DNA of 64,000 nt from Stropharia rugosoannulata (taxonomy: Eukaryota > Basidiomycota > Agaricomycetes > Agaricales > Strophariaceae), in assembly GCA_028532985.1 (NCBI GenBank), contig JANCIK010000007.1, forward strand, positions 372,001 to 436,000, written 5' to 3'. Position numbers and translations under genes: made by a program. The notes under the pieces were generated by a model. It did no database searches. It was not told the origin of the DNA and worked only from the letters and a program-made list of their open reading frames with translations. Below, piece by piece: positions 23,349-54,000 of this stretch (the stretch's first letter is position 1; the number at the start of each line of letters is the position of its first letter).

Positions 23349-23417
23349 GCCCGTGCGCGGCTCTGATGGATCGTTTAGTGCTATATATGATCCTTCAAAT
23401 GAATGTCTTTTATCATT

Positions 23418-23965: not shown

Positions 23966-24463
23966 TTCCCGAACTGACATTTTGCTGTCTTTCCATTGAT
24001 AACTATCTATAGTCATAGCTAGCATCTATTCCTTGGTACATGTGTCATGACCCTGTATTTGAAATAAGACTGTCGGGTAACATTGTTATGCATTTTCGGC
24101 ATCAATTCCCAAAGCGGACATCATTTTGCCAAACGGGGAAAGACCTGCATCTCCTTTGATGCGCGCACCCTTTTGCTGCAATGCACGCACGATCCTCCCA
24201 TCTCATGTTGCTATATGGGCTCTTGTATTCAGGTCCCTTCCATCCCACTCAATCTCCGTGAATGTAACGTCGGACAGGTGTAGCCCTGTGCTATGACCCT
24301 TCTGGACCTTTTGTAAAGTCCCTCCTTCCTTAACTCCTTGGGCCTGCTGTTCGGTCGGTCACCAGCTGCGCGCAGCGCTGATCATCCCAGTGAATGCTAT
24401 ATAAGCGCTCGCCGTTTCTGTATGAGCGCATCGCATTTTATTCCTACTTTCTCAACCACCACT
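23966..24463 (+). promoter_or_regulatory. ORF3-ORF4 spacer with TATA box (A1)
   Basis: This 500-bp spacer is conserved with A2 (38512-39011). TATATAA at 24398-24404 lies 66 bp before the ORF4 start. TTTGATGCGCGCACCC (near 24157) and other TGCGCGCA-type motifs occur. There is no gene. Confidence 0.55.
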
Positions 24464-25780: not shown

Positions 25781-25860
25781 ATAGCCTGGCTCAATGTGCG
25801 CTGAGCGCCTTAAAGGGGCGTCTGTAGCTAGCTCTCTTTGTATTCCCCATCTTCTTTACC

Positions 25861-25875
25861 CAATATATTATATTG
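25861..25875. terminator. Palindromic AT element between ORF4 and pol (A1)
   Basis: CAATATATTATATTG lies between the convergent 3' ends of ORF4 and pol. It is almost perfectly palindromic and is kept in A2 (56452-56466) and, with one change, in B (47051-47065). The position suggests a two-way transcript end signal; that is inference. Confidence 0.5.
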
Positions 25876-25906
25876 TGGTCGCTTTCTTCCTACAGTGCTC
25901 GCGCAT

Positions 25907-31119: not shown

Positions 31120-33164
31120 TCGAAACCCTGACTGAGCGCAGCGTCGCGTTCGGCTTTCATAGTCGCTATTAGCTGACGCTGTTCCTCTATCACCTCTTCA
31201 GGCGTCTTCGCTGATGCGCGCTCCTTCAGGAACGCCTTCTTACTCTCTAACTCTTGCTGAAGTGCGCGTATCTGCTCCTCATATGCCTCGTCCAAGGAAC
31301 TGGCCGGTTGGTACATCTGCGAGTATACCATGCTAGGAGGCATACTCATGTACGAGGGATGGACGGGTGCCATATACGCTTGCTGCGCGGGCTGCCCATT
31401 CTTCTTATGCCATTCATCGACGCGCTCTTTGATCGCGCGCGAAGGGTCCCAAGGTATCGATGACCCGTCAGGTAGCTGTAAGCGCCCTGCCTCTGTGATG
31501 ACAATCCTCCCCGCTGACAAGTCTTGCTGCCTTACGATGCACTCAGCAACCACATGTCCCGTCTGCTTGCAGTAGAAGCAGCGAGGCTCCGGGCGTTGTT
31601 GGTATTGGAAGGGCCTAGGTGGCGGCCCACCAAAACTCGGTGCGCTCATGGGCATCATGGGGGCTACTGGTTGCACAGGCACCGACATCGGTGCGGCGCG
31701 CGCAGCCATGACATTGCGAATAATGTCCTCCAGTTCTTTCTTACTCGACTCCTTCGACTTCGCCACCGTCTTCTCTACTAGCGACAAGGTATCCTTGAAG
31801 GAGGCGACGAACCCTTTTAGGTCCTCAATCTCTCCGCGCAGCGAACCAACATCCGCGGCCTCAGTCTTGATGGCGGGCACCGGCATAAGTCCATCAGTGC
31901 TATCGCGCCCTAGGCTCAGCGTAGTGCTTGGGTTCTTTGTGCGGGCCATTTGTTCCGCCATCTCGGCTACTTGTTTGAGAGGGTACATGTCCTCGGTGCG
32001 CGCTTCTACCGTCACCCCAGTAGGTGCAGTGAACTGTATATTGCGCTCAGTCAAGAACTTGTCGAACGATGCGCGCGTCGTGTAATCAATGTCCAGTTTA
32101 TTAAACAAACGATCCCTGAACCCCGCAGTGAGACTATTGGTGAAGTAAGTCACCAGGGTATGATTCGCGAGCAGAGTAGGTGCCTTCGTGAGCTTAGCGG
32201 CCTCGGCCAAGAACGCGCGCTTGAAGTCTAGCAACACCTGGAGGTCTTCCTCCGAGATGCGCTGATTCTCCTTGCAGAGCTTCTTGAGCTGCGCGATGGA
32301 CCCCGTCTGAATGCTGATCACCTCCGGGTACTCGTTGAGAATCATTTTCTTGAGCTCCGCGTACCCCTTGGTATCATAACCTGGTAAATTCTTCCACTCC
32401 TCCGCCGTCTGCATGGGTACATATTTTATTACATATCCCCTCTTTTCATCGTCCTCCGTCACCTCCGCGCGCTTAAACCAATCCTCCAGATCCTCGAAGT
32501 ACCGCGGCAGCTCATCGCGCTCTGCAGCAGGATCGAAGCTCGGCGCGCCGCGCGCACCGCGTACTGGCATGGACATATCCTTAGGCATAGTTTCTGTTGC
32601 TCGAGGGGGTGAATTTTGTTCGCTTTCTGAAAGATCTGACAAGTCTCCTTCAAATATATCTCTCGCTACGCGCTCTGCTTCACTTTCGCTATTTTCCGCC
32701 GTGCACTGCATGGACGTCTTAGCAGTCCCAAATACTTCCGAGAATGGAGGAGGGGTGTCTTGGGTAGCTTGGCTATCAGAAGTACCGAATGGTGCGGTTT
32801 CAAGTGTAATATCACCGTCCACTAATTGGTCTTCTGATTCAATGCCAGATGGTGGTCCCCAAAATCCACTAGTCCCTACTCTTAATTCCGAGTCGCTTTC
32901 GGTGAGCGCACCTGGGATGCGCTGCGCTAATCCCTGAGTCTCAATATGCAACTGAGCTTCCTCCCTCGCTCTTTTCTTTGCTTTTCTGTCTCGCGTCGGT
33001 GTAATTACCAACGGCTCTACCAGCTCAGCGTCTTTCTTGCTCCTCGTGGTTCTCTTGCGTGAAGGCACCGTTCCAAAGGATGGTCTGGCTTCTTCTGGCT
33101 CGGCGAGCGATGAAGGCGCAGGAAATTTGCCTTTTTGTAATTTATTGTAATAGGCGCAAGCCAT
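31116..33164 (-). CDS. gag: Gag (A1), capsid and nucleocapsid
   Basis: The 682-residue frame starts at ATG 33164, 55 bp inside the LTR. Order: a basic, charged N-terminus with TRSKK; an acidic Ser-rich segment; a Ty3-type capsid domain from about residue 215 (ELPRYFEDLEDWFKRAE onward, ending near DRLFNKLDIDYTTRASFD); a coiled-coil-like stretch; one CCHC zinc knuckle, CFYCKQTGHVVAEC; and a Gln-rich coiled-coil end. Gag packages the genomic RNA. The 5' end differs between copies: A2 and B carry about 30 extra bases after YYNKLQK that change the frame, and B has lost the ATG, so the start used by the family is uncertain. Confidence 0.9.
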   Translation of the reverse strand: MACAYYNKLQKGKFPAPSSLAEPEEARPSFGTVPSRKRTTRSKKDAELVEPLVITPTRDRKAKKRAREEAQLHIETQGLAQRIPGALTESDSELRVGTSGFWGPPSGIESEDQLVDGDITLETAPFGTSDSQATQDTPPPFSEVFGTAKTSMQCTAENSESEAERVARDIFEGDLSDLSESEQNSPPRATETMPKDMSMPVRGARGAPSFDPAAERDELPRYFEDLEDWFKRAEVTEDDEKRGYVIKYVPMQTAEEWKNLPGYDTKGYAELKKMILNEYPEVISIQTGSIAQLKKLCKENQRISEEDLQVLLDFKRAFLAEAAKLTKAPTLLANHTLVTYFTNSLTAGFRDRLFNKLDIDYTTRASFDKFLTERNIQFTAPTGVTVEARTEDMYPLKQVAEMAEQMARTKNPSTTLSLGRDSTDGLMPVPAIKTEAADVGSLRGEIEDLKGFVASFKDTLSLVEKTVAKSKESSKKELEDIIRNVMAARAAPMSVPVQPVAPMMPMSAPSFGGPPPRPFQYQQRPEPRCFYCKQTGHVVAECIVRQQDLSAGRIVITEAGRLQLPDGSSIPWDPSRAIKERVDEWHKKNGQPAQQAYMAPVHPSYMSMPPSMVYSQMYQPASSLDEAYEEQIRALQQELESKKAFLKERASAKTPEEVIEEQRQLIATMKAERDAALSQGFD

Positions 33165-33200
33165 AGTTCCCGAAACACTAATTGAGATTTCTGAACCTTC

Positions 33201-33218
33201 CCCTCGCGGTGGGCTCCA
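33201..33218 (-). promoter_or_regulatory. Primer binding site (A1)
   Basis: On the element strand, TGGAGCCCACCGCGAGGG starts two bases after the end of the LTR. TGG at this place pairs with the CCA end of a tRNA primer for minus-strand DNA. The same sequence is found in A2 and B. The tRNA was not identified. Confidence 0.85.
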
Positions 33219-33220
33219 GA

Positions 33221-34365
33221 TGAGAGGTCTACTGCGTAGCTAGACTCGAAATCGCGAAACACAACACACACACACACCCAGCGGAGCGAGATCCTATCCC
33301 TTAGATCGAGCGAACGCCCTCAACTAAACGGCTAGTATAATCTATGCTCTGCTCTGGTTCCCGTTCTGGGCGTGCGATGCACGCACCTCGTGTCCTCTAG
33401 TCTTTGTAACAGCAAGTAGTGCCTGCAAGTTCGTTTGTAAGGAGGGGTTTAATTCTAGTAAATCTCGGATAGAGCCTGGTTGCTAGTGGCGTGCGCTAGG
33501 CAAGATGATGAATGAAATAAGTTGTTTTAGCGAACGGCTTCGCTGCGCGCACTTCCGGGTCCGGTGACCTCGTACGATGCGCGGACTCTCCAAAGTCCAA
33601 CAATCCCAAGACTCTCCAAAGTCTTTCACCCGGCGGTGCAGTCTCACAGTCTAAACACTACAGTGCGAGTTTCCGTACACGGTTGTACTGACTCCTCACT
33701 GAGCTCTCCAAATGACCCGGTGGTCAGAAGCTATCCAAAACTCCTATGATTCACAAACACTTCACAGTTAAAACCCTAACAAAAGCTAAACACAGCCCGC
33801 TGACGGCCTGGGACGGAACCCAGCACACAGATCTAGTGGGTAGACAATTGCTTAAATTACTAGCAACACACGGCCAAAGGTCCGCGCATCGCATCCGGGC
33901 TTCCCTCTAGTGTCCCAGCCCCTTGGCATTCGCTGCGCGCATGTCGTTCATTCCCTCGGGCTTTTGCGCGTCTTTTGATGCGCGCCGCCACGGTCACATG
34001 ATGTGTGGACTTAGACAAATTCTGCCTTTGCGATGCGCGCACATGAGATGCGCGCACAGCCCTTCACACCGCCCTTGGTACTCGCTCAGCTGTACTCACA
34101 CCGCACTTCGCTGGTGCTTAACCGTTCTACACCTCTCCGATCGCTCGCACAGATGACCAGACTATGCACTTTAGGCTGTGCAGCTTGCTGACCGATCTCT
34201 CTCGCAATACGGTGCACGCAGGCGCTTATAGCCATAAAAGCGTGCTGATAGCTATAGACTATGAGTCAGGCTCCACTCTAGTCCCTCTGTGTTTTCCCGC
34301 GCGCAGCTGTCCCACTAACGGACCTTCTAACTGTTTACACCCGTAGCCAAAAAGCAGCCCTGTCA
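33221..34365 (-). repeat. LTR, family A (middle, shared by A1 and A2)
   Basis: The LTR is 1145 bp, starting TGAGAGGTCTAC and ending GCCCTGTCA. On its left side lies a PBS (A1) and on its right side a polypurine tract (A2), so one LTR serves as the 5' LTR of A1 and the 3' LTR of A2. It lacks a segment of roughly 80 bp (between AATTACTA and GCAACACACGG) present in both outer LTRs and has more intact CG sites than either. Confidence 0.93.
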
Positions 34366-34402
34366 TCTCCCCCCCACTAAAATCTTGACTGTCCTCAGTC
34401 AA
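34366..34402 (-). promoter_or_regulatory. Polypurine tract and palindrome (A2, LTR-proximal copy)
   Basis: TCTCCCCCCCAC next to the LTR is a polypurine tract on the element strand. The palindrome TTGACTG-TCCT-CAGTCAA is at 34385-34402, identical to A1. Confidence 0.85.
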
Positions 34403-34918
34403 TTCTAGATGCGCGCACCTCATCTTTGAAAGCAGTTCACCATTATCCCGTTTTCCTGCCTACGGCTCAGCTACTGCCTTACGCTGCTACTACGGCGCCT
34501 CCGCCGGAGTCACGATCTCTATCCATCCTCTTTCCTTCCTTTTCAGGTATCCCCACCCGACTTTTCTTGACTAGCTTATTTTAGGCAACCGCCACCGCAC
34601 TCATACGCGCACTGCACTTCCCGCTGACTTCCTTCTCGAGACATTTGCCTAGTCAGGCCTTTTCTTTTCCCTTTTGGAGCCTTGCCGGACCTTCTTTTGG
34701 CGTTACGCTGTTCTAGCATATTGCCGGTAAGTTTACTCGACATGCGCTCATCGCCGTCCGCTTCTCTCATACTCCAGACTTCTCCTTCGCCATTCTCTCC
34801 TGCGTATATAACCAGTTCCCTTGCCCTTCTTGTCCTTTCTTTCTCTCGCTTCCCTCTCTTATTCCCTACTGCTGCCTTCTTATCACTCTACTCTCTCATC
34901 CTGGACCACAAGAGCTTC
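34403..34918 (+). promoter_or_regulatory. Upstream region of ORF1 (A2) with TATA box
   Basis: It is nearly identical to 19736-20237 of A1 until the last 60 bases before the ATG. TATATAA is at 34805-34811. There is no gene. Confidence 0.6.
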
Positions 34919-36929
34919 ATGGCTTTCCGAGGCGTCAGCAAACTGCTCAAAGTCGAAAAGGAAGAGTGCGCCCTTGCCTGCGCTGATCATTTCCATCGAC
35001 TCCGCCCCGTCTTGGCGCAATACGACATTTTTGAAGACTTGGGCGCCCGCAACGCCATGGAGCCTGACGAACTTGCCCAGTTCAAGTCCCTCCGCGAACA
35101 GTTTGGTCTCGCCGTGGAGAAGCACATGCGCGCATTTCCTCGCGATGGTACTCATCACGCGGGAACGCGCGAGCTAGCTCTCCTCTTGTCCCTCATGGCC
35201 CTCGGTGACGATGATCCCATCTTCGGATGGGATTCTGAAGATATTTCTCGGCGCGCCGTCTGGTTCGCTGAGCCCGAACTGGAACTAGTAAGCTCCGTTT
35301 CTTTTGTCTTTCTTTTCCTTGTTGATTTTAAACCTGCGCTGATCGCTTCTTACAGTTACCTTCTTATAAAATTGCCTTTGCCACCTCTTTTCCCGCGTCA
35401 TGGTCGCCCGGGGCTCTCCCAGAGCCCCGCATCCAGTACATCCCCCCCGAGTCATCTGAGCGCGACGTGGAGATGGCTGAGCCCGAAGCCGCGACCACGG
35501 GCCCTCTCAAAACGATCAGCGCACCCCCACCCGAGCCACCGCACGCCTCGTCAACTCCACCACCCCCTTCTCCTAGCCCAGCTCCTTCTGCGCGCGCCTC
35601 GCCCGCTCCCCCTGCCCCTGCCCCTGCGACGCTTACCAAGCACAAGTGCGTGTCTCCTGTCCCTTTATCCAGTCTGCCCATCCCCCCCGTCCCTAAGGCC
35701 AAACGCACGCGCTCTGCCGCTTCGACCCCTGGTACAGTACCTCTTCTTACAGGTCTGTGCTTATTACTTGACGCCTTTTTAGTGGTCCAGGAGGCCGTGG
35801 CAGGCCCTTCTCGACAGCCAGCCCCCCTTGCCCCTAAGGTGCGCGCATCGCGTACCAAGGTCGTTCCTGTGAAAGCTACCTCCAGCGACCTGACTGAGCT
35901 GCCCCGCCTCCATGGCATTGATTCTTTGAAATCCCAGTACCAGTCGACATATCCCGTATACAACCTTCTGCCTGGCGTTTACCACGCATCTCTGGTGCTG
36001 GCTGGTAAAGCTCTGCCGGGCACTGTACGCATGGCTGATCTGCCCCCTGAAGAGGCGCTGCGCGAGGCCATCGTCGTGCGTCTCTTTATTTTTATTTTAT
36101 TTCCTCCTTAGTTCTCAATTGCTTTTCTTTTTAGCCCGGGTTTACCTGCTCGTTGTGCGAGCGCCCTCAGGACAGCTCCTCTGCTGCCCCTTCCCCGAAG
36201 CACTTCTGCATCCTTCGTGGTCCTGGACGGAAGTGTTCCAATTGCCGCCTAGGTGGCCAAGGCCCTTGTATGCATACCATGACCGGCCCCGAGCTTGACA
36301 GTGCGTTGGAAGGCACTTCTGGTTGGCATCGCACCTCCCCCCATGGTGTGCGCATCTCCTTTTCTTTTCTTCTGTCCCTTCTCATCTCCTCCTTTTTCTT
36401 AGAACTGCAGGCTTCTTTTTCCCGTCTCGAAGCGTTCCGTCAGCAAGCGCGCGCCGCGGAAGAGACTCGTCGAGGGCTTCAACGCCTTTATTTCGCCGAG
36501 CTTATCCAGCTTGTGCAGCTCGCGCAAGCTATGGCCGCAACTTTGCCCACCAACGTCATCATTGGCTCTCGTTTCTCTGACTGCAAGACCTTTGATGCCC
36601 TCCGTTCCATGGATCTTGAGCAGCTCTGCGCCGCATACAATGCGCTCTGCCAGCCTCTTGACTCCGACGAGCCGACCGACTTCGTTCCCTCTTCCTCCTT
36701 TTACGATCCCGCGCACCCTCGTCAAGATCCTTCATCTTTCATCCCCGCCCCCCAACCTTCTAAAGCCTCCAAGGCCCGTGCATCGGCTCCTAAAAGCAAA
36801 GGCAAGGGTAAAGGCAAAGGCAAAGGCAAGGCTCCCGTCCGGTCTTACAAGTCCTCCCCCGTCGTTGTCGACGACTCGAGCCCCGAGGTCTCCGCTGAGG
36901 AAGAGGATGGCGATAATATGGAGGCCTAG
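34919..36929 (+). CDS. Antisense ORF1 (A2), divergent allele, five exons
   Basis: Exons 34919-35287, 35356-35731, 35783-36075, 36135-36345 and 36403-36929 give 591 residues. The exon lengths of exons 1, 3 and 4 equal those in A1 exactly. The N-terminal domain shares only about half its residues with A1 (common: HFHRLRPVLAQY, SLREQFGL, HHAGTREL, LPSYK), and the Pro-rich linker is shorter with a different order. The TYPVYNLLPGVYHASL module, the Cys cluster (CSLCERP, CILRGPGRKCSNC, GPC) and the FAELIQLVQLAQAMAAT helix are better kept. The tail has a run of GKGKGKGK. The reading frame is intact. The divergence stands out because neighbouring DNA on both sides is almost identical between A1 and A2. 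Confidence 0.85.
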
Positions 36930-37411: not shown

Positions 37412-37892
37412 ATGGCTCTCCGATATCAGCACACCGCTGTTGCTCGCCAATTTGCCGTGCTATTGAGGCGACTCGCCATTCATGCGGAGCTCGCAGAGGA
37501 CTGCCACAACGGCCCTTTTCACTTTCCTCTACAGTCTGCTCAGTCCCTCGTGCGCGCACTGGTAAAGTCCTTATGTTCATGCAAGCGCTTCCTCTGCTGA
37601 CGTTTTCCTCCAGGATCGCATTACACTGCCTTTGCGCTTTATCGATTTCAATCGCCAATTCCTGTCTTTAGTCATGACGATCGTGTTTTACGAAGGCCGC
37701 GCTCAGCGCAGATTCAGCGATGATCATTTCGATGCGCGCATGCTCAGCAACGCCGCTCTTCACATTCTCGATCGGTACAGCCATCTTGGCATGCCTTTTC
37801 ACAATCTCCCACCCTCGGAACCAACAGGGACCACCATTCTAGACGTCGATCCCAACGCTGCCCTTGTAGTAGATGATATTAGCTACGATTGA
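37412..37892 (+). CDS. Antisense ORF2 (A2), two exons
   Basis: Exons 37412-37561 and 37614-37892 give 142 residues, the same lengths as A1. Differences from A1 are concentrated in the first exon (FAVLLRRLAIHAE against FTAILRQLAVHVE); the second exon is almost unchanged. This places the right border of the divergent ORF1 block inside or close to ORF2 exon 1. The frame is intact; function unknown. Confidence 0.82.
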
Positions 37893-37962: not shown

Positions 37963-38511
37963 ATGCCCTCCTTCGATACCAAAAGTAATCTCCTTCAACG
38001 CACGAGGTCTGATCCTTCCTTCCTGCGCTTAGCTGCTCTACCCAAGCGGGCGCTAGCTGATATTCCGCTCGATGATCATGAGCACATCTGCCGCATCTAC
38101 ATAGGTGCCCTTCATTTTATTCTTGAGGCTGCAAGTGAACCGCTGCTTCCCATGACCATCTGCCTAGACATGATGCATCACGTTCAAGACCATGCGGTGT
38201 GCACATGTCCCCCTTCTCCAGCCTTTTTGTGCGCGGCTCTGACATGCTTGTAGCGGGCTCTGGCGCTGACCGAAGCTACCTGTCACTCGCCTCGCATCTC
38301 GCACTTGTGTGCTCAGCTTCACTATAGCAAGCTCATCCTGCGCTTGTGTGGTACTACTGATGCTGAGCACTACGGCACCCTCCCTCACTCTGAACACTTC
38401 CAACAACTTCACTATGCCGCCCAGGTCTTTTATCAGGAGGAATTCTTTCCTGTAGGCCTCTTCTTCCCATACGCTGCGCTGACCCTGACAATCACTTCTT
38501 AGGATGTTTAA
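37963..38511 (+). CDS. Antisense ORF3 (A2), three exons
   Basis: Exons 37963-38196, 38254-38451 and 38503-38511 give 146 residues, with the same phases and the same Asp-Val final exon as A1. TATATAT is at 37926-37932. The frame is intact and almost identical to A1 (AERYG is AEHYG here, a CG to CA change). Function unknown. Confidence 0.78.
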
Positions 38512-39011: not shown

Positions 39012-42000
39012 ATGGCTACTACTCATGCTCCTCTTTTTAACTTCACCAATGTCAAGCATCAACTCTCACTGATCCAGGACATTCGTGGGTTGGCCTCTGC
39101 CACTCCTGCGAATTACACTGGTAGCTTGGAGCTACTTGCTGTCGATTTGGTGCGTGCATCGCGCGGTTCCCTTGTTGTATGTTACTATCTTCATCTGGCA
39201 CGATTGCAGAACCGCTGGCGCGACACGCACAGCGGTATCACTCGCGTTATAAACAACAATGAAGCTGTCGAGATCCTCAACGAGACTCGCGCCATATATA
39301 CGTCGCTCGAGGCTGACCACCACATTCGCTCCTTCTCTCCTGCCGCCAATGCATTTATCAACTTGCATGAACAAGTCCTCAAGGCTAAAGCTGCCGCTTC
39401 TCGCCAGCGCACCCATACCCCTACTGGACCTGTGCGCTCATCTTCCTCTCCTAACCCTTTCTATACTTAATCCCCTTTTTGGTGCGTGCAGCGCAACGTT
39501 CGCATTCTTACGCGTTCCGCAACTGCGGACCTTGAGACCGCCTCCGCACCTGGAGGTACTACATCTCCCGACTCTGACGATGACAAGGTGTGGCTAACCT
39601 TGGTTCCTTTACCAGACATCACTAACATGCAACTTTACATGCTCCTCAAAAAGATGGCCCTTGACGATAAAGTTGAAGCCGCGACTGAGGGAGGTCCTCC
39701 CAGCAGGCAGCATACACCTGAGCCGAGTCCTAACAAGAAGCGTGCCGCGCCTCCTGATACTCCTAAACAGGTGTGTGTTTGACCCGTCTCCGCTGCGCGC
39801 TGAGAGGTCTGCCGCTGGGCTAGACTCGAATCACAAGAAACACAACACACACAACCCCAGCGGAGCGAGATCCTATCCCTTAGATCGAGCGACGCTCTTC
39901 AGCTAAGCGGATTATAGATGTCTTCGCTTCTCCTGGTCCTCTCCGCTGAGCGGACTGTGATGTTTAAGAGTCTCGTAAATTCAGTCCGGATGTCCGCTGT
40001 ACAGTGCCTGCAAGTTCGTTTTTAAGGAGGGGTTTAATTCTAGAAGTCTCAGATTAATGTCTGGGCGATCTCCGCTGAGCACAGGGTATCGATAGTAATG
40101 TATAGTTCTGATGGTGGCTCCGCGGGGCTTATTCTGCTGAGTGGGTTTGAGGTCCGGTGACCGATGCAGATGCTCACACAAGCTGGTATTCCAATTGTGC
40201 CTCGCTCCGCTGACTATCCAAAGTCGTTCCGCTGGGACTGTCCAAAGTCCTATTCCGCTGAGGCTATCCAGAACCTCGTTCACCCGGTGGTGCAGTCTCA
40301 ATTCACAAAACACTACAGCGCGAGTTTTCGTACACGGTTGCACTGACTCCCCGCTGAGCTCTCCAAATGACCCGGTGGCCAGAAGCTATCCAAAACTTCT
40401 ATGATTCACAATACACTTCACAGTAAAGACCCTAACAAAAGCTAAACACAGCCCGCTGACGGTCTGGGACGGAGCCCAACACACAGATCTAGTGGGTAGA
40501 CAATTGCTTGATTTCCGTAGTTACAATTACAAGTTTATATAGACGCGCGCTGTGTACTAATTTAGGTGGAGAGTAAATACTAGCAACGCCGGACCAAAGG
40601 TCCGCTGAGCGCATGTGCCTCCGCTGGGCGTTTTGATGACTACCCCGCTGAGCGCGACCTGACCTCGTTGTGTTGCCAGCCTCCGCCGAGAGACGCCATT
40701 GAACTCCGCTGAGCAGTTCCTTCTGGGTTATTGAGATCTGGTTACTGCTGCCAAAGTTCCCCAGCGGAGTCTGTGCTGTGTGCATTATTCATTCCCTCGG
40801 GCATCACACGCTCCCGCGCGTGCGCCACGGTCACCTGACGAGTGGACTTAGGCAAATCTCGCCTTCGTGATGTGTTCCGCTGAGCCCCCTTTGGGACACC
40901 GTCTACACACAGTCCTGCTCGTCGCCTTTGATATTTCTCGCTCAGCTGTACTCCTGCCTTCCGCTGAGAAGACAGTAACCGTTATGTGCCCCGCTGGCAG
41001 TTATTCCGGGTCCTTCAACTGTGTACTTATGACTGGTACAGTCCGCTGAGCCCCCACACAACCGCCCGCTGAGCACACGCGTGATGATTTGTGATGCATG
41101 CGCTGAGTGCCGAGACGGCTGACCAGGCTAGTCACTGCCCCGCTGTACCCTTGCACTTCAGCCCAAAACGCCCGCTGTGGCTATATTACAGCCTTGGTGT
41201 AAACGCAGGCCTGTCATCTCCCCCTCACTAAAAATTTTGACTGTCCCCAGTCAATGCATCCCAACCGCCGGACTTAGCGTGATCAGCTACCCTCTAGCGC
41301 CTCATCCTCTATTTTTAGCCCTCAGGCGCTTATCTGGCCTATTTTTAGGTCCGGTTACTCATTGTTCGTCATTCCTACACATATAGTAGATCTCTGCCCA
41401 ATTTTGTTTTCAGGTCTCCGCTTTCCTTTCTGAGAAGTTCACCGCTGCTTCTCGTCTCCGCTTTCTAAGTGAATTACCGCCGAGCCTATTGGACGCCGCC
41501 ACTACTTCGTTTTCTCTTTTCCCGCTTTTCTGTGTGCCAGAATCTTCTGGCATTCCGCTCCCGCCCGCTTTCTATTTAATGGGCTCTATTTTTCTCTGCG
41601 CTCCCCATCCTCTACCTTTCTTCTCTCTCTGCTTTCTTCCTCTCTCTCTTTTAAATGGCCTTCAGAAACTTCGACCGCAAGCGCCGCGCACAGGAGGCTG
41701 AAGACGCCCGCTTGGACGCCCAGGACCGCTTTCGCCGCCTGCACCCCGCTCTCGACGTGTATAACGAATTTGAAGACCTCGCTGGCACCGCGCGGATTTC
41801 CAGCGCCGGGTCCGCTCGCCTGGACACCCTACGCGATCTTTTCGCGTCCTGTCTAGAACACCACATCGCCCTCTACCCCACCGACCCGGTCTTCCACTCT
41901 GGAGTCCGCGAGCTTTGTACTATTTTGTCCTGCATCGCCAACATGCTAGAGGACGACGAATTCGGCTGGAACAGCGAGGACCCTTCCGAGCGGAGCGTCT

Positions 42001-45000
42001 GGTATCTGGAGGAGGCTCTCGATCCTGTAAGTCCCATTTTCTTTCTCTTTTTCTTCGTGCGCGCTCATCTAATGATCTTTCTTCAGCTCCCTTCTTACAA
42101 GGTCATATTCTTGACCGCTTTTCCAAAGCAGTGGTCTGGGTCCCGCATCCCCGCCACCCGCCCCTCCTTGGCCGCCCTCCCGTCCGATGACGACGACATT
42201 CAGATGACCTCGGGGCCCGGCTCTCCTCGTACCTCGTCCCCTGTTCCCTCCCGCGGCGCGGACAAACGTAAGCGCTTGTCGTCCCCCGCGCTAATGCCCC
42301 CTCCCCCAGTCCCCAGCGGACAGCCTTCTAAACGTCAGCGGAGTGCCGCTGTAGCAGCCAATGCTGCTATCTCGGGTAACATCCCCTTGCTCCATTTTCT
42401 GCAAGGTCTACTGACCTGTTTCCTAGCCGCCCAAGCGCAGCTGGCGTCCAGCTCTGATTCCTCCGACTCTCCCGTCTTCGTTTACAGCGGGGTCGAAGAA
42501 CTCCCCCTTCTTTCTACTCGAGACAGCGGACGGTCCGCTTACAAGTCCACCTATCCCATCCTCAACGTAGTTCCTCCCGTATTTTCTGCCAAGATGGCTC
42601 TCGCTGGTGCTCCTCTTCCTGGGGCCATCGATATGTCCCAGATTCCTTCTGAGAATCGTCTCCAGGGGATAATTATTGTAAGTTTTCTCTCTCCCTCCCT
42701 TGCTCTGCTTTCTAATTGTTATTTTACTTTCTTATTTCTAGAAGGGTATGGTGTGCAGCTTGTGCAACCGTCCTTTCAACGAACGCGTCGACAAAAGCTT
42801 TCACCAATGCATTTGCCGTGGCTGGGCGAAGACTTGCTGCACTTGCAGCGTACAAGGCAAGGGCCCCTGCCTGTTCTGCTGTGAGCCCGCTGAGTTGGAC
42901 AAGTCCATCGCAGACTCTACTCTTTGGCACCAGACGTCCCTTTCTAGTAGGTCTTCTCTTCTTCTTCCTTCTTATGTTTTACTAATGTCTCTGTCTTGTA
43001 GATCTTCAGCTGGGCTTCGCGCGCCTGTCTGTTTTCGAAGATCAAGCCCGCGCCGCGGAAGAACAGCGCAAGAGCGCTGAGCGTCTATACCTCGCCCAGC
43101 TGATGGAACTTGCGCAACTCGCGCGCGCCATGGCTGCCACCCTCCCCACCGGTGTTCTCATCGGTCGACGCTTTTCAGACAGCGAGACTCTGGACGCCCT
43201 CCGTTCGCTGGACTTGGACCTGCTCTGCGATACCTACACTCGCCTTTGCGCCCCCGTCGACCTGGAACCCCCGCTCAGTACTACCCCCGTGGCTCGCTTC
43301 TATGACCCCGCGCATCCTCGTTTCGATCCCTCCTCTTTTACTCCCGCTCCACAGCCTCTCACCGCTCAGACCTTGGAAGAATTCTCGTCCACGGAGAAGC
43401 GCAAGAAGAAGAAGAAGACCAGCAAGAAGATCGCGTCCGAGCTCGCCTCCGATGAAGACCAGAATGCTTCGCGCTCCGCTGGCAAGAGTGCTACGCGCCC
43501 TGTCCCTAGCCCCGCTCCTTTGTCTTCCAAAGGCAAGAGTGTTGTGCGCCCTGCTCCTAGCCCCGCTCCTTCGTCTTCTAAAGGCAAGGGTGTGGCCACA
43601 CCTCGTCCTACGCCTCGCCCCCGCGTACCTAAGTTGACCCCTTCCCGCATCCCCAGCGAAGCGGACGCCGAGGAGGCTCCCGAGGATGACGTCTGATCGG
43701 TGCGCGCTCTCAGCGGACTATTGTTCTCTCCTATTTTGTACCAGTCTTTCTTTCTTCCCTACTTTATCTAGCATATGTAAAGTAGATTATGTCCAATATC
43801 AAATATGCTTCTTGTTGTCTCCCTCTGTGTTTGTGTGACCTTGCCATTTCTGGAGTCGTTGTTAAGATTTCCGCTCCGCTGAGCAGCCTGCAAACTTTTG
43901 AGGAGGTATCTTAATTGTTGCCCGGGCTCTCCCACAGCCAATTCTCTTCCGCTGCATGTTTGCTGGTTTCTTTCTCTCTTCTCAGGTCTGCTCAGCGGAC
44001 TTCTTTTCTTCGCACGTGCTCCGCGGTCATATATTTTAGCGGGCTCTCTCCCCCTCACTATAAAATCAACTGTCCTCAGTTGACAGGCTCATTAGCCTTC
44101 TCCTTCATTCTGTCATGCAACGCTACCAGCGCACCAATGTCGCCCGCCAGTTCACCACGATCCTCAAGCAGCTGGCTGTCCATGCTGAGCTCACCGAGGA
44201 CTCCGCTGAAACTACGATTCACCTGCCTTTGCAGTCAGCGCAGGCCGTTGTCCGCGCGCTGGTAAGGCTCAGTTTCGTAGATTCCCCTCTGCTGACTATC
44301 TCCACAGGATCGCATCGCCCTTCCGCTGAGATTCATCGACTTTAATCGCCAGTTTCTGGTGTTCCTCATGACCATCGTGTTTTACGAGGCCCGCGCTCAG
44401 CGGAAGTTCAGCGATGATCACTTCGACCCACGCCTACTCAGTAATGCCGCCTTACGGGTCCTCGACCGATACAGTCATCTGGGCATGCCATTCCATCTGC
44501 TGCCTTCTTCTGAGCGAATTGCAGCCGATGTTCAAGAAGCGGACCCTGATGCCGCGCTCATCGTAGACGACGTGTGCTCTGATTAGGGTGGTCCGCTGCG
44601 CTGACCATCTTCGTATATAATATAACTCCCTCGGTCTGTATTCGTATATGCCAACATGCCCTCCATGTCCGCTGAGAGTAACCTCTTATTACTTGCACAT
44701 TCCGATCCTCGCATCCTTCGTCTCGATGCTTTGTCTAGACGTCCGCTGAGCGACATTCCTCTCCATGATGTAGCCCGAGTATGCCGAATCTATATAACTG
44801 CCCTTCACTATATTCTGGACTCCGCTGCAGAGGAACAGCTACCCATGAGTGTCTGCCTCCCGCTGCTTAACCGAGTTCAAGATCACGCTGTAAGCCCATT
44901 CTCTGCTGACCATGCGCTCCCACTGAGTAGTCCGCGCAGCGCGGCCTAGAGCTGACCGAGTCCACCTGTCATTCACCGCTTCTTTCTCATCTCTGCGCTC

Positions 45001-48000
45001 AGCTGTATTACACCGAACTTGTGCTGCGTCTGTGTGGTACCAACGACGCTGAGCGCTACGGCGTTCTTAATCACACCGAACACTTTCAACGCCTCCATTA
45101 TGCCGCCCAGCATTTCTACCAGGAGGACTTCTTCCCCGTCTGTCCCCTTTTCTCTTCCTTCTCCGCTGCGCTGAGACCAGGATTATGTCAGGACGTTTGA
45201 GGCATTGCGCCCCTTCCTTGGTTTACTCCGTAGGGTACCTTTGTTACAGTAACCAGAGTAAATGGCTCTACATGTGGTGCCTCTATAGCTATTTGAAATG
45301 ACAAGTATCTAGTTAGGCACTATGTATTGTCGGTGCCAATACCTGATTTGGACATAATTTTTCCAAATGCGGTAATCACACGATCAGCCTCCGCTGAGCG
45401 CTTCCGGCTAGGCGCGCCTCTCCGCTGGATCTCATTTCGTCTCTCAACTGCTCCCGCTCTGCACCCTGTTTTATGCGAGCTTGCATGTGGTGGTCTGTTT
45501 CTACCTCCAGCGTTCATACCATAACTCCGCTGGGAGTCTGGTCCGCTGGGATGCCACATTCCTCGCCACTGGACGCCCCTCATTAGGTCCTCAGCACTCC
45601 GCTGAGCCTATATATATGCCCTACTCTCATACTTTCAATCACTCAGCCACTCATGTCTAACGCACCCGCTCCGCTGTACAACTTTAGTAATGTCAAGCAT
45701 CAGCTGGCATTAATCCAAGATATCAGAGGCTTGGCTTCCGCCATGCCTTCCAACTATACCGGGAGCCTCGAGCTTCTGGCTATTGACTTAGTACGCACAA
45801 CACTCAGCTGGTCCGCTGGGCCTTTTACTCCGCTGACCACTCGAACTTTTTAGAACCGCTGGCGTGATCCCCACGGCGGCATTACTCGTATTATCAATAA
45901 CAGCGAAGCTGTTGATATTCTCAACGAGACGCGTGCCATCTACACCTCCTTAGAGGCGGATCACCACTTCCGCACTTTCTCTCCCGCTGCCAACGCTTTT
46001 ATCACTCTGCATGAGCAAGTTTTAAAAGCGAAAGCCGCTGCCTCGCGTCAGCGCATGCACACTCCCACTGGACCAGTACGCTGTATGCTTGCTGCCTCTC
46101 TTTATCTTTTTACTAACCGTCCGCTCAGCGCAACGTTCGCCTCCTCTCGCGCTCCGCTGCCGACCCTGAGACGGTCTCTGCCCCTGGAGGTACCTCATCC
46201 CCCGATTCCGATGATGACAAGGTGTGGCTGACTTCCTTCACCCCTTTAGATATTACTAACATGCAGCTGTACCTCCTCCTTAAAAAGATGGCCCTTGATG
46301 ACAAGATCGAGGCTGCCACTGAGGGCGGAGTACCTAGCCGCCAGAATACCCCAGAGCCTAGCCCTTCGAAGAAGCGCTCAGCGCCTCCTCCCGACACTCC
46401 TCGTCAGGTTCGTTTTGTTGCGTTTTCCCTCCCTCGTTACTTTCTCACTTCTATGTCAGCGGGAGCGTACTGAGGCCAGCGGACATCGCACTCGTGCGCT
46501 TGGCCGCGGCATGACACTCCGCTCCTCTGACAACCGGCGCTCTCCGCGCGACACACCGTTCCACGATGCTTCCTCTAAGAAGGCCCGTCTCGGCGCTGAC
46601 GGCATTCCTACTTTCGCCGATTCTCCTTTCATTGTACAGGGTGCGCTCTTTGCCCTCACTCTTCTCCGTTGCGTCCGCTGAACTACTTCATCTTCTTTTA
46701 GGTACCAATCTTACTCTTTCGAATGACAAAGTCAATGCCTGTCTCGACGCTGCTACCAACCTCATTAAGGAACCGCTGAACACCGGGAACCCATCCGAGC
46801 TCGTCACTCGCCGTCTCATCGGAGACTTGCAAGCTGAGATCATCTGTGACTTGCACAAGATTGACTTCATCCTGAAGCGCCGCGCTCTGCTCGTTAAAGA
46901 GTTAGAGACTTTACAGCACAGCTTGGATTTGACTGGGACCAGCCCCGCTGAGGAGCCCGCGCCACAGTGACGGCCTTCTTAATTACTCCGCTGAGCGCCT
47001 CAAAGTGGTCCTTAGCTAGTTCCTTTTTTACCTTTCTCCTTTAGTTTACCCAATATATTCTATTGTGGTCTCCTTTTCTACTTTGTGCCTCTAAGCATCG
47101 GGCTCCGCCCACCCATCCTCACCATCATCTTCTTCATCTGCTGAGACTTGGCCGCTGCCTGAAACCACTCCTGGTTCATCAAAGATGTAGTCTTTAGGTA
47201 TGGCCGGCTCGTAGTCTGGCGCTGCCATCATCTTGTTGAGGTTCTCGCGCGTTTGATCAACGATATCGTCTAAGTCCGCTGGCAGCTTCAGCTGACGCCT
47301 GGCAAAGTAGGGTATTAAACGGAATGCTGCGACTTTGTCTTTCAGCACCGACCCATCCAGCTCAGCGACTAGATAAGCGCCTCCTTCCTTCCGCGCGATG
47401 ACGATGTATGGTCCATTCCAGCGCGCCAACATTTTGCGATTTAAGCTGGACTCAATGCCAGAGTTACGCATCAGTACAACATCGCCAGGTTTGAATGCAT
47501 AGTCTCTGATCTTAGCGGAGTGTTTCCGCTCGAACTCTCTGATAGCATCCCGCTTTATCTTTGACACCCGCTGACGCATCTCCTCCACTGTGTCCCTGTG
47601 TTTGGCCAGCGCGCGCGCACGATACCCTACTAACTCCTCGGTGGTAAGTACCCGATCTGGTAACTTGACCAGCCACGTCGCTTCAGCGATGTCCAGCGGT
47701 AGTATCGGGTGCGCGCCAGTGACCATGAAGAAGGGTGAACACCCAAATCCTCGGCGGACTGTAACACGATCCGCCCACAGCACATGGTAGAAGAACTTGC
47801 TCCAGCGCTTATGTGCGCCCTCGGTACCTCCACACGCTTTCCACAACATTTGTCTGATGTCCCAATGGGGCCGCTCTATCTTTCCGTTCGCCTGAGAGTT
47901 GTACGCTGAGATTGTAATCCCTGTAATACCATACTTCTTTTCTAAGTACTTGAGCGCTGCGCGGAATGGTCCACCGTTGTCTGTGATTATCTCTCTAAGA

Positions 48001-51000
48001 CATCCCCAGCGGCAGATAATATCCTCAAACATCCACTGCGCTATCGCCCTTGCGTTCTCTTTCTTCAGCGGACGACCTTCCACCCATGAGCTCAGCGCGC
48101 ACCGCCCGTGCACTATGTAGTTGTACCCATTCGAGGCAGGTGACATGTGCATAGTGTCCGCGTGTAGCTGCTGGAAGATGGACGGCGTATGTGTCTCTGT
48201 CCGCGGAATCTGGATAATCATCTTTTGCCTCAGCTGACACACATGGCATGTCTTGACATACCAGTAGACATCCCGCTCCAGCTCTGGCCACCAGAAGCGC
48301 TCCATCAGCAGTTTGCGTGTGGCGTATGCGCCTCTGTGCCCCAGACTGTCATGCGCAGCGCGCAACATGCGCGTCCGCTGAGCGGGATCAACTACCAGCT
48401 TATGTGCCTCGTCCACTGAGCGCCGATACATCCGCCCATCCTTGTCTAAGAAGAAGTTTCGTGCGTTACGGATGAAATTCTGATACTCCCGCTCGCTCAT
48501 ATCCTTGGGTCTTGTACTGGGATTTTGCAGCCAATACCTTATCATAGGCAGCTTATCATCCATGTCCTTCCCCGCTGACGTTCGATTCCGCTCATCGTAC
48601 TCTTCGTCTTCCAACTCATCTATCTTTGACTCTGGAATTACATGTGCCAGAACAAATTTCTCTAAGTACGCCCGCTGAGCGGGCGACACCTCCTCTGTCT
48701 GTAGGAAGTTACGCACTGTCCGCTGCTCTTCTCTCGTCTCTTTTCTCGCCCGCTCCAGTTCTAACTGGAAGCAGTCAACCGAATGTGCCTCCGTTCTAGC
48801 TGGCTCAGCGGGACCATCAAACAACTCGTTGAGGAATCCAGCTTGGAGATACCCTCCGCGGTCGTCAATCTGGTCCTTGAACTCTTCTAAACTCAGCGGA
48901 TCGGGATCCTCTTCATACACTTTTGCGTACTCCAGCGGACCTACTTCTTGGTCATCATCCTCCGCTGAGTGCTCATACTCTTCATCTCCTGGTTGTCCTT
49001 CTCGTCGCGACAGGCCGTCCGCGCCAAACGTTTTGCCTGCTACATGCTTCAGCTGAAAGTGGTACATAAGGATCTTGTCTATCCAGCGGTTAATGGTAGC
49101 GTTAGGTCCCATGCCTGGATTATCCAACATCCCCTTGAGATATTTGGCATCCGTCTCGACTACCAACTTCCGCGCTCCGATGAGCCAGTAATAGCACGCC
49201 TGCAGCGCTCGCAATAGCCCGTATAGCTCTCTCTTTGGTTGTGAGAACCGCTGTTCCCTCTCAGTTAACAGAATTGACCCAAAGCGGGCATACACACGCT
49301 TCTTCGCGTTCAGCGGATCTTGCTGGTAGATATAAAATCCTACAGCGCGCCAAGACGTGTCTACTGCCAGCGTGATTGGTCCTGGCAGTGTATAGTCCAG
49401 CGGCTTGACACAGTGTGCGTTCCGCGCTCCATCCTTCAATGCGTCCATACTGGCTTGCTGCGCTGGCCCCCACTCGAAGGGTTCTTTCCCACGCAACAAT
49501 CGCTGTATGTGCTCCGCTCGCTTAGCGTAGTCTGAGATGTAAATACGCAGGAGCCCCATCGTACCCATGAAGGCGCGCACATCGCTGACGTTCTTACACG
49601 GTCCCCAGTTGAGGATGGCGTGCACTTTATCTGGCGCTGGCTTTCGACCTTCGTAGGTACATAAGTGTCCCACCACTACAATCTCCGCTGCACACAATAT
49701 GGATTTCTTTCCGCTGAAAGTCCCTCCTGAGTACTTCATCCGCTGAACTATCCTGTTCACATTCTGCATGTGTTCCCACACAAAACGCCTGATTCCGCTG
49801 TTCTCTGGAATCGTCTCGTACCCTCCATCCTCTAATTCATACCGTGTCTTCGGTCCGCGGATAGGCACATCGTCAATGTACGGCTCCGTGACGTCTGGTA
49901 TTTCATCGCGAAGAATATAAGTTACATCTTCATGGAAGATGGGTACAGAATTGGTCCAGCCCATTGGCAAGGTCACTAAGCGGAGCGCACCAAACGGTGT
50001 CTGGAATGTTGTTAAGTCGCGAGACGACTCCGCTAAGAGCCGCTCGTCGTAGCCTACATACAAGTCCAGTATTCCGCCACACGCGCGCCCAGCGAAGTGT
50101 TCTGCCAAACTCTCCGCTGCCAGCGGCAATCCTGAGTGTGCGATGGTAACAGCGTTCAGCGGCTCTAAGCTGTGTACTATTCTAAAGGACACCCCGTCTT
50201 TCTTTGTTACTGTGAACCAGCGCGACCGGTACAATGAACTGGATGGTTCATAAGTCCCAGCGCGGATCTTAGTAGCGATGAACTCGCACACCCGCTCGTA
50301 CATGCCTGGCGGAATGGGTATATTTTTCAGTACCCACGGCGTATGTTCTACCGTTGGAATATCTACCGGCGGGAAGAAGTCTGTTCTAAACCTCCCCTTT
50401 TCCGTGTCATCCCACGCAAACGCCTCATTCTGCTGCATGAACACCTGATGTACTAGCTTGCGCTCCTCTGGCCACAGGAAATCTCCTCCGTGCGCTTTAT
50501 CTATTTCCTCCTTCCGCTCCGCTGTGTACCTTCCCGTGGGTACAAACTCTGGTGGGTGTACTGTCAGCGGAGGCATTTCTTTCAGCGGATCTCCCTTTAT
50601 CTCCCTCACTATCCTGAATTTCTCTGGTAGCTCTTGATAAACGGGCCTGACCTTGTCAGCGACCGGCTTATATTTTTTTCCTGCAAAGACGGTTACGGTA
50701 GTGGCATTCTTACCACTTAACCGCTTTCTAGTTACTCCTTTCCGCGCTGACTGGCCTTGCTCGGGGTCCGCTGAGCGGAATTGCCCCCTAGGCTCTCCTT
50801 TCACCGTCTCTTTTTCTCGCCATTCCTTTTGCTGAAAGTACTTATAAATTGATGCTTTCTCTTTATCCTCCATCTTAGCCTCGTGCACAGCTTGAGCCAT
50901 GTACACATCTCTCAGCTCAGCGGAGCCAAATCTCCCTCCCTTCTTTGGCAATGCATACCCCGCTATCTCTATCTTTCCAGTCCTATCATCCCGCTCAAAC

Positions 51001-54000
51001 ATTAACGCGACCTCTCCTTGACGCATCAAATCATCGAGGACTGAAAATCCTGGTCGGCGTGCAGCTCCCCCGCTGCGCTGGAGTCCTGCACATCTGGTTC
51101 CCGCTGAAGTATCTTCGGCCCGCACCCTCGATTATACGTAGGTACCACTAGCTTCCGCTGAGTGTTTGGGTCCGTCAGCGTAAGTTCCACTGTGCCATCC
51201 CCGCGCGTCTTCACATTGCTTTCAGTGAGAATCTCAAACGGCTTCCCCAACAGAACCTCATAGGCGGCCGCGCTGATAACGTGCACTTGTAGGTACACTG
51301 TCAGTCCGCTGAACACAAAAGGTACATTCCGCGCTAAACCCTTAGTCGACTCGACTTGTTTGTTAGCGCTCTGCATCCTAATGGTAAAGTCAGGATCCCA
51401 GCTTAAGCCTAGTCGCTCCGCGGTATCTTGCGCCATGGACACTATTTGCGATCCGCTGTCGAGCAGAGTCTCTGCACGGCCTTTCCCATTGATCAGCGGA
51501 AATACCGCCTTGAGATGGTGCGACTCTCGTGCCACAATTAATCCCTTGGGCTTTTCGCCTGGTTGTAGCGTCGAGATATACTGCTCATAGGGATCCTCCA
51601 TGATTATTGTGCCGGGTTGTAATCCACCGCGCTCCTCCGCGCAAGTGAGGAACGTCGCTGCTGGGAGCTCGTCCATTCGCATGAACTCTTCTTCTTCATT
51701 CTCCTGCTTCAGCTGGGCGATGGCCTCGTCCATCTCCCACTCCTCTGCCTCATAATCCAGCTGCAAAACCCGCATGGTATTTACATCCAGCGGAACTTTG
51801 CGCGGTATGATACGCTCGACAAACTTTCTCCTAAACCCCGCTGTAGAGATCCCCAATAATTGCCCTTGAGTGATCTCTATTTTCTGGCTCTCTAAACGCT
51901 TAAGGACTTCGTCCGCTTGTGCTTCATCCTCAATGGCCGTGCGCAACTTATACGCTGGCTTCCTTTTCTCTATCACTGGCACCGGCGCTTCTCTTACAGG
52001 CGGCCGACTCTTTTCTGGTACGCGCAGCGGAGGAACCATTACATACGGCACCTGCGCTGGCTTTTTATTCTCCCCAACTTTCTGCGCTGGCGCTGCGAAG
52101 CTTACTTTCTTTTTCTCCGCTCCGCTGGGCGCCTGTCTACTAATCTCTTCTATAAACTCTTCCTCATCTCCGCTGTCGACCTCCTCGATAGTTGTCCTTG
52201 GTGTACTTCTTACTGGTAGCTTCTTATTTACGTCTTCCGGGTTCTTGGGTTTATCAGAGCCGCTACGCTGAACTCTGCCCGCGCTTCCCTTCATCAGACT
52301 CAATCGAAACCCTGGCTCAGCGCTGCATCCCACTCCGCTTTCATGGTCGCGATCAGCTGCCGCTGTTCCTCTATCACCTCCTCTGGCGTCTTGACCGCTG
52401 AGCGCTCCTTTAAGAACGCCTTCCAACTGTCCAGCTCCTGTTGTAGTGTTCGAATTTGCTCCTCATAAGTCTCATCGAGAGAGCTGGCTGGTTGGTAGAC
52501 CTGGGCGTACACCATGCTCGGCGGAGTCCCCATGTACGCGGGGTGTACCGGCACCATGTAGGTCTGCTGCGCTGGCGGCCCATTCTTCTTATGCCACTCG
52601 TCTACACGTTCTTTGATAGCGCGCGAAGGGTCCCAAGGTAATGACGATCCATCTGGCAACTGGAGCCTTCCAGCTTCCGTAATGATTATCTTCCCAGCGG
52701 ACAGATCCTGTTGCCTCACAATACACTCCGCTACAATGTGTCCCGTCTGTTTACAATAGAAGCACCTCGGTTCAGGTCGCTGTTGGTATTGAAACGGGCG
52801 CGTCGGCGCTCCGCTGAAGCCTGGTCCTCCCATTGGCATCATAGGTACCGCTGGCTGGACTGGCGCAGCTACAGGCGCTGCCCGCGATGACATTACATTG
52901 CGCAGAATATCTTCCAACTCCTTCTTATTGGTCTCCTTTGACTTCGACACCGTCTTTTCTACCAGCGACAACGTATCTTTAAACGACGCTACAAAACCCT
53001 TCAAGTCCTCAATCTCCCCGCGCAGTGTATGCACCTCCGCTGACTCGGTCTTGATGGCAGGTACAGGCATGAGCCCGTCCGCTGAGTCTCGAGTCAGGCT
53101 GAGCGAAGTGCTAGGATTCTTGGTGCGCGCCATCTGCTCCGCCATTTCCGCCACCTGCTTCAGCGGATACATGTCCTCAGTCCGCGCTTCCACCTGAATT
53201 CCGCTGGCGCCGTAAAGGGTATATTATGCCTTTAGGTACTTGTCAAACGACGTTCTCGTAGTGTAGTCGATATCCAGCTTGTTAAACAACCTCTCCCTGA
53301 ACCCCGCTGTGAGACTGTTGGTGAAGTAGGTCACCAGCGTATGATTGGCCAGCAAGGTAGGCGCCTTGGTCAACTTCGCTGCCTCCGCTAAGAATGCCCG
53401 CTTGAAGTCCAACAGCACCTGGAGGTCTTCCTCCGAGATGCGCTGGTTCTCCTTGCACAGCTTCTTTAGGCGCGCGATGGACCCCGTCTGAATACTGATC
53501 ACCTCAGGATATTCATTGAGGATCATTTTCTTCAGCTCAGCGTAACTCTTGGTGTCATAGCCTGGTAAATTCTTCCACTCCTCCGCTGTCTGCATGGGTA
53601 CATATTTGATTACATAGCCTCTCCTCTCATCATCCTCCGTCACCTCAGCGCGCTTGAACCAGTCCTCTAAGTCCTCGAAGTAGCGTGGGAGTTCATCACG
53701 CTCAGCGGAGGGGTCGAAGCTTGGTGCACCGCGTGCTCCGTGCACAGGCATAGACGTTTCCTTAGGCATGGTGATAATTTCAGGGGGCGGTTCGTGTTCA
53801 CTTGTGGAAAGGTCTGACAAGTCTCCTTCAAATATATCTCTGGCCACGCGCTCGGCCTCACTCTCACTATTATCTGTCGTCCGCTGAGCGGATCTCTTAG
53901 CAGTCTCGAATACTTCCGAAAACGGAGGAGGTGTGTCTTGAGTAGCTTGGCTATCTGATGAGCCAAATGGTGCAACTTCAAGCGTAATGTTTCCGTCCGC

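Follow-up and report, generated by a model that had tools for sequence, protein, structure and literature searches.

In the basidiomycete Stropharia rugosoannulata, long terminal repeat (LTR) retrotransposons of Ty3/Gypsy type carry an antisense block of four spliced genes, located between pol and the 3' LTR, and each of three related families is marked by one private short word that recurs in dozens of copies. Here, we describe this arrangement from a 64,000-nucleotide stretch of contig JANCIK010000007.1 of assembly GCA_028532985.1 (positions 372,001 to 436,000 of the forward strand; the window), which holds two A-family elements, A1 (18497-34884) and A2 (33221-64000), and a B-family element, B (39801-55840), nested in A2, all three with their sense on the minus strand. 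The word of family B is TCCGCTGA(G), first seen as TCCGCTGAG recurring through the element, that of family A is the palindrome RTGCGCGCAY, and that of a third family, C, is TCGGAAA; the words lie in LTRs, introns and spacers and, in A and B, in coding DNA as well. We propose that the antisense proteins may read the word of their family and so keep its own copies from being silenced, by analogy with the VANC proteins of plant VANDAL transposons, a tentative reading to which we give somewhat less than even chances.

The four genes of B, G1 to G4, occupy the plus strand and contain 11 introns in total, as the initial annotation of the window had counted. G1 (exons 41655-42026, 42087-42375, 42427-42677, 42742-42946 and 43002-43696) encodes 603 amino acids in five exons, G2 (44115-44261 and 44308-44586) 141 in two, G3 (44656-44889 and 45003-45200) 143 in two, and G4 (45653-45790, 45854-46075, 46129-46221, 46267-46407, 46460-46640 and 46702-46970) 347 in six. 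The same four genes, also on the plus strand, occur in A1 at about 20238-25777, namely G1 (20238-22342; about six exons, the internal ones uncertain), G2 (exons 22871-23017 and 23070-23345), G3 (23418-23922; exon 1 at 23418-23651, a second exon from 23772 and an uncertain 3' end) and G4 (24464-25777), which has its introns at the positions seen in B and a single in-frame stop, in the second-to-last exon. In A2, G1 lies at 34919-36920, G2 at 37415-37889 and G3 at 37963-38508, while G4 begins at 39012 and is truncated by the insertion of B.

The initial annotation had thus placed the genes correctly in all three elements, A2 retaining G4 only in part, and its claim of persistently open frames is borne out by B and fails for G4 of A1 and A2. 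It had given the genes 5, 2, 3 and 5 exons, of which the count for G2 and, in B, that for G1 stand, and had taken exon lengths to be alike across copies, which is so for G2 (147 and 276 nucleotides before the stop), G3 exon 1 (234) and G4, all recurring in A and B. G1 is inconstant: by the models it has five exons in B, about six in A and four in other B-type lineages, the A-type G1 and the 3' end of the A-type G3 being the uncertain models throughout. By the same models, the B-type G1 genes at C5:306k, C10:2592k, C12:1632k and other places lack one or two of the introns of the window copy.

The intron positions were followed with a purpose-written spliced protein-to-DNA aligner, run on A1, A2 and copies elsewhere in the genome; since the aligner admits GT..AG introns only, the position of an intron and not its dinucleotides is the test. 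Among 20 further copies (10 B-type and 10 A-type), the single introns of G2 and G3 fall at the same codons in all 20, and introns 1, 2 and 4 of the final G4 model are in place in all 18 copies that retain the gene, out of 19 pieces inspected. G4 exon lengths agree in 14 of these 18, the exceptions being L066 and L067 (split at a further intron), L059 (a shortened end) and L074 (one codon less). Intron lengths, by comparison, are not constant: in 10 of 12 sets the copies differ, usually by a single base or a few; the lack of exon gaps in that comparison is a matter of construction, the G4 models having been picked for equal exon lengths, and is not used. A three-exon G3 was rejected, as 44779-44838 encodes a protein segment (CxIYxxxLHxxL) that A and B share and that all 20 copies conserve. 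A five-exon G4 was likewise rejected, as 46222-46266 is a 45-nucleotide intron with a TACTAAC branch site: six of ten B copies carry a stop inside this third intron and two more have it at 46 nucleotides, so that reading G4 requires its removal in eight of the ten, and a CTAAC branch site is found there in all 18 A- and B-type copies. The simplest reading of the persistence of these introns is the one proposed at the outset, that they survive because the genomic RNA of the element is the opposite strand, and nothing contradicts it.

The genes are tied to pol throughout the genome (48 Mb in 20 contigs). Of the 91 G2 places entered from among the matches listed, with three fragments left out, 62 have an opposite-strand integrase 3-6 kb downstream and one has a same-strand integrase; as 150 of 256 integrase candidates were scored, the remaining 28 places cannot be said to be without one. 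The possibility that these are ordinary single-copy host genes caught by chance was rejected on account of their many copies and this link to pol, and the initial annotation was right to see them as antisense companions of pol. Pfam holds a model of TRP28, a domain that does not appear among the Pfam matches of G1-G4. A protein database search with G1 scored 7992 candidates, none of which passed, and no relatives were found in IMG/VR with G4. One B-type copy (C13:2201920-2206958; pieces L010, L012 and L025) has a CpG observed/expected ratio of 0.62-0.65 and fewer words, as if words were lost with age.

All four genes are under purifying selection for their proteins, with ratios of nonsynonymous to synonymous substitution (dN/dS) well below 1. 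The ratios were computed by NG86, with G4 recomputed without its third intron, after omission of the B G1 models C10:65k, C12:2246k and C1:4883k, of L059 and L077 for G4, of three B copies whose piece lacks G2, and of pairs with dS at or below 0.02 or saturated, dS between A and B being near saturation. The median dN/dS within B and within A, respectively, is 0.17 and 0.17 for G1, 0.12 and 0.19 for G2, 0.12 and 0.22 for G3, and 0.12 and 0.07 for G4; single pairs range up to 1.20, and values near 1 are not the rule, in keeping with the selection on the proteins that had been supposed from the open frames.

G1 is the most variable of the four, G2-G4 being more conserved. In the same pairs of elements, the synonymous difference is greater in G1 than in G2 for 27 of 28 A pairs and 86 of 91 B pairs, and greater in G1 than in G4 for 20 of 21 A pairs and all 10 B pairs; between A1 and A2, 69% of synonymous sites differ in G1 and 8% in G2. 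This excess over neighbouring genes suggests that homogenisation of the rest of the element may have spared G1, whose old alleles were kept or exchanged. Between A and B, the integrases are 95% identical in protein and G1 about 40%. Within this variable protein, six cysteines in exon 4 are invariant in six of six sequences, with the spacing CX2C-X14..16-C-X8-CX2C-X7-C.

The words separate the families. In the LTR and antisense region of B, the plus strand has 19 copies of CCGCTGAG where 0.25 would be expected, and both strands together have 22; the corresponding region of A1 has no CCGCTGAG, one CCGCTGA and 16 TGCGCGCA against 0.29 expected, and that of A2 has one, three and 12, respectively. 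Each of 30 B-type loci (L009-L038, many of them overlapping) contains 1-13 CCGCTGA, with the A word confined to L033 and L037, which overlap and represent a single B locus; L039-L048 and L059-L068 contain the B word only, and among 19 A-type pieces (L049-L058 and L069-L077) TGCGCGCA is present in 17 and the B word in none. Genome-wide, TCCGCTGAGC has 789 matches against 80 for its reversed control, and GRTGCGCGCAYC 255 sites against 2 for its control. Contig C1, for which the listing was complete, has 97 B words, of which 69 are no more than 15 kb from a B-type G2 and 11 are near an A-type one; of its 31 A words, 26 are near an A-type G2 and two near a B-type one. The regions concerned make up 3.0% and 3.6% of the contig. 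Density is highest in the B LTR, at 15.6 words per kb against 6-8 elsewhere in B, and in A1 it is 6-8 per kb in the LTR and the noncoding antisense DNA, including the introns of the antisense genes where the A word is dense, against 3-4 in exons and pol. A finer match, in which word flanks would track G1 lineages within a family, was rejected, the one instance being a B lineage (C1:2293k, C12:1632k, C1:2387k, C12:2246k and C1:4883k) that adds 8-9 copies of the variant word CAGCTGAG.

The abundance of the words is not an effect of composition or codon usage. When synonymous codons were shuffled, CAGCGG/CCGCTG occurred 32 times in B pol against a mean of 5.6 in the shuffles and 24 times in B G1-G4 against 4.8, and GCGCGCA 13 times in A1 pol against 2.9 and 13 times in A1 G1, G2 and G4 together against 1.9, values reached in none of 200 shuffles in each of the four cases; the word of the other family was not clearly enriched in the same coding DNA (at least 16 of 200 shuffles reach its count). 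Both words had been picked from the DNA used for counting, a circumstance that is corrected for in pol by comparing the commonest 7-mer with the commonest in each shuffle. By this test B has 17 copies against a shuffle maximum of 7 (0 of 100 shuffles), A1 has 13 (1 of 100) and A2 has 11 (0 of 100), and none of 16 pol frames from other Gypsy copies stands out, at least 11 of 100 shuffles reaching the value in each. Two of the 17 control pieces, L093 and L094, proved initially not to be the pol frame, of which L094 was redone (32 of 100) and L093 left out; the controls belong in part to one family (L004-L007; L089 and L096). As element copies are related, counts over copies are not independent events.

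With integrases 95% identical between A and B, the words differ over a short protein distance. They came at some cost, for codons within B words keep the A1 amino acid in 79% of 56 cases, the figure outside words being 89% of 1153. Once in place they are held: in an alignment of 8-10 copies to the window copy, non-CpG word letters are mismatched in 1 of 319 cells in noncoding B, where other non-CpG sites reach 7.2%, in about 3 of 646 in coding B against 3-6%, and in 1 of 160 in noncoding A (the G4 region only) against 5.4%, roughly ten- to twentyfold less divergence than their neighbours. CpG letters within words are lost at about the rate of other CpGs, with differences of a few points in either direction between regions. 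The flanks of the 20 CCGCTG sites in the B LTR differ, so the words did not spread there by local duplication.

Family C, whose pol frame spans 1228 amino acids, was chosen by its integrase before its antisense region was seen. The region between its pol and LTR contains antisense frames, one of which has 21 near-full, stop-free matches in the genome, and TCGGAAA occurs 18 times against about one expected in each of two pieces (L087 and L088) that are 92-97% alike. The C antisense gene was matched to an opposite-strand integrase in 11 of the 25 places entered and to a same-strand one in none, and all eleven integrases assigned to C by score have the gene on the opposite strand. An integrase tree unites A, B and C in a single clade (support 1.000) that excludes ten other Gypsy pieces. 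Homology of the C antisense genes to G1-G4 was rejected, no profile match falling below E 0.01 in any of 12 pieces; the best, to G3, has E 0.011 and lies on the wrong strand. The first antisense gene of C (antisense strand of L087/L088, about 799-1778) seems to start inside the LTR, and there are many short matches to its first 30 residues.

The best word p values are 2e-33 for A, 6e-44 for B and 1e-17 for C; among the control pieces, CT-rich repeats in L098 give 4e-7 and the best elsewhere is 1e-7 or weaker. The ten other Gypsy pieces (L089-L098) yielded no antisense block with a word that could be linked to pol. Long frames do occur on either strand in L090, L092, L094, L096 and L098. L089 was considered as a fourth word family and rejected: it is 99% identical to L096 until about base 1690, where the element ends, and its ACCGGCGG words and 480-amino-acid frame lie beyond that end, in a different repeat. 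This repeat (L089:1691-5265), with 18 ACCGGCG-type words and the frame intact, is possibly another word-bearing element; the frame has 38 genome matches at 36-100% identity, some of them in open frames of 562 amino acids.

B itself is a Ty3/Gypsy-type LTR retrotransposon by its LTRs, target duplication, primer-binding and polypurine sites and domain order. It is 16,040 bp long with both LTRs, the 3' copy at 39801-41216 (1416 bp) and the 5' copy at 54432-55840 (1409 bp) being 99.5% identical, and is flanked by a 4-bp target duplication, GCGC, at 39797-39800 and 55841-55844. A primer-binding-like CGCGGTGGGCTCCAGA adjoins the 5' LTR on its left (54416-54431) and a polypurine-tract-like stretch, TCTCCCCCTCACT on the plus strand, lies at 41217-41229, both assigned by eye. 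The CCCCCTCACTA of this tract (41220) recurs at 44050, before G2 and beside TATAAAA, where it could be a second priming site or a promoter. On the minus strand, the pol frame (47091-51131) encodes a reverse transcriptase with YIDD at residue 418, which the Pfam RVT_1 model misses, RNase H (residues 554-690) and an H2C2 integrase (914-969), and the protease and gag-like frames (51026-54366) contain an aspartyl protease above the cut-off, within the frame 51026-52462, and a zinc knuckle just below it; the order protease, reverse transcriptase, RNase H, integrase fits the Ty3/Gypsy type. A1 and A2 stand in tandem with the middle LTR in common, their LTRs starting at 18497, 33221 and 63213, the last continuing beyond the window. 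B interrupts A2 at 39800/55841, exactly inside an A-family word, TGCGCGCA (39797-39800 and 55841-55844), by chance or by targeting. To the left of A1, positions 1-18400 are AT-rich and CpG-depleted (CpG observed/expected 0.36), with remains of a DDE_1/Tc5-type transposase.

Several known systems resemble parts of this arrangement. VANDALs are plant DNA transposons of Mutator type, which sets them apart from the LTR retrotransposons A, B and C. VANC21 of Arabidopsis is described as binding YAGTATTAY and the targets of VANC6 as carrying AGTTGTCC or AGTTGTAC, with loss of methylation (PMC5735166, PMC10398659); the likeness to our families lies in a family-specific short motif, in an accessory protein with conserved and variable regions and in a diverse exon-intron structure (PMC5735166). 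Antisense extra open reading frames (ORFs) at the same place, between pol and the 3' LTR, are known from plant Gypsy elements of the Retand, Grande and RIRE2 groups (PMC11963269, PMC7264820); as far as the consulted text goes, these are mostly ORFs with a TRP28 domain, unlike the genes found here, and neither a four-gene spliced block nor family words are described. Boty-like LTR elements of the ascomycete Botrytis cinerea carry an antisense gene, brtn (as cited in PMC7264820 and PMC8365987), a fungal likeness, by description only, that comprises a single gene. Fungal transposons also carry TET/JBP dioxygenases thought to counter methylation, in this instance an enzyme on DNA transposons (PMC12730594). 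The initial annotation knew of no fungal precedent; brtn is one for a single antisense gene, and our search of the open-licence literature, with most subscription papers outside it, turned up neither a spliced block of antisense genes nor family words in any fungal element.

Our proposal is that the antisense proteins are made, most likely from plus-strand promoters in or near the 3' LTR, and that one of them would recognise the family word in DNA and thus find the family's own copies, where, once bound, it would counteract silencing or activate them; a joint change of word and reader would have kept the families apart. The foremost candidate for reading the word is G1, whose six invariant cysteines might build a zinc cluster. 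CGG triplets are a common target of Zn2Cys6 proteins, and CGG is present in the B and C words and absent from the A word. Among the roles first suggested for the genes (movement, anti-silencing or host interaction), the family words favour anti-silencing. That three families have three unrelated words suggests, further, that the rise of a new family brings in a new reader along with a new word, and a general password system, in which each family of this Gypsy clade writes a private word that its antisense spliced genes read, so that only its own copies are active, seems to us conceivable, at somewhat less than even odds.

A number of observations weigh against this proposal. The words are single sites that occur in coding DNA too, whereas those of VANDALs are tandem repeats in noncoding DNA, and it is for VANDALs that binding and methylation loss were demonstrated (PMC5735166). 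B G1 lineages with dS near 1.9 share the same core word, so fine-scale co-evolution is weak, and for such different alleles to share a word, either the conserved cysteine part must do the reading or another gene must. The candidacy of G1 meets its own difficulties: the Zn2Cys6 spacing is CX2CX6CX5-12CX2CX6-8C, and the second half of the G1 pattern fits it, but the first loop (14-16 residues against 6) is too long; Pfam has no match for G1, including Zn_clus, nor for G2 or G4, and one sub-threshold, unrelated match for G3; nothing in the PDB falls below E 0.4 for the cysteine domain; and a low-confidence structure model of the cysteine exon from three sequences (pLDDT 61, pTM 0.41), too poor for a fold search, has strands and one helix and lends the Zn2Cys6 fold no support. 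Two of six members of the cysteine part match Pfam DIL weakly (E 0.004). The CpG content of A and B elements does not exceed that of other young Gypsy elements, so there is no sign of reduced methylation in the sequence, and CpG retention as a mark of escape from methylation was rejected for that reason. Finally, the 1-kb pol end of C shows no word enrichment (93 of 100 shuffles reach its value), the control L093 holds GCGCGCA seven times (p 2e-6), and the B word is biased in strand.

This bias is what chiefly speaks for a word read in RNA. In that case, an element protein would bind genomic RNA at UCAGCGGA, or antisense RNAs at the complement, so that the RNA is packaged, exported or shielded from RNA silencing. 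On the plus strand the 3' LTR of B has 20 CCGCTG and 2 CAGCGG, and the ratio is 23:3 over the G2-G4 region (44115-46970) and 38:20 in pol; upstream of G1 in other B copies it is 10-18 to 0-1 in 11 of the 12 pieces with more than 1 kb there, the twelfth having no words. The bias follows the element and not the coding direction, and a symmetric reader of DNA would not need it, so recognition of RNA has to be reckoned with. Yet it is not a rule, as the A word is palindromic, the C word is split 11:7 and 10:8 and B G1 has 3:4, and the density of the word in LTRs and, in A, in antisense-gene introns also speaks against it; we hold reading in RNA to be rather unlikely. The same peak in the B LTR and the higher density in the LTR and noncoding antisense DNA of A1 would suit ordinary transcription-factor sites, bound by a host factor or by G1 at the LTR and antisense promoters and unrelated to silencing. 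Words are enriched in pol and the antisense exons too, however, far from promoters, and this explanation is in our judgement unlikely.

The antisense proteins may instead serve otherwise, in host interaction, movement or the regulation of retrotransposition that has been suggested for plant antisense ORFs, with the words a separate matter; the stronger conservation of G2-G4, which have no known relatives, would agree with this, but in our sample antisense genes and words mark one and the same clade, and we consider such a separation distinctly unlikely. That the words are functionless products of a mutational or copying bias seems highly improbable: a family-wide bias could in principle write one word many times, and nothing was found in its favour, while the constraint on word letters, the different flanks of the 20 LTR sites and the different words of families with nearly identical integrases all stand against it.

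If the proposal of family-specific self-recognition is true, it would be a second case of sequence-specific anti-silencing, beyond the one plant transposon group for which the literature consulted documents it, and would suggest a general strategy. It would also explain why long-lived elements carry spliced antisense genes, and each family would predict its own binding site. With words in coding DNA that run against codon choice, protein genes would, unusually, have been shaped by a code that acts on DNA or RNA.

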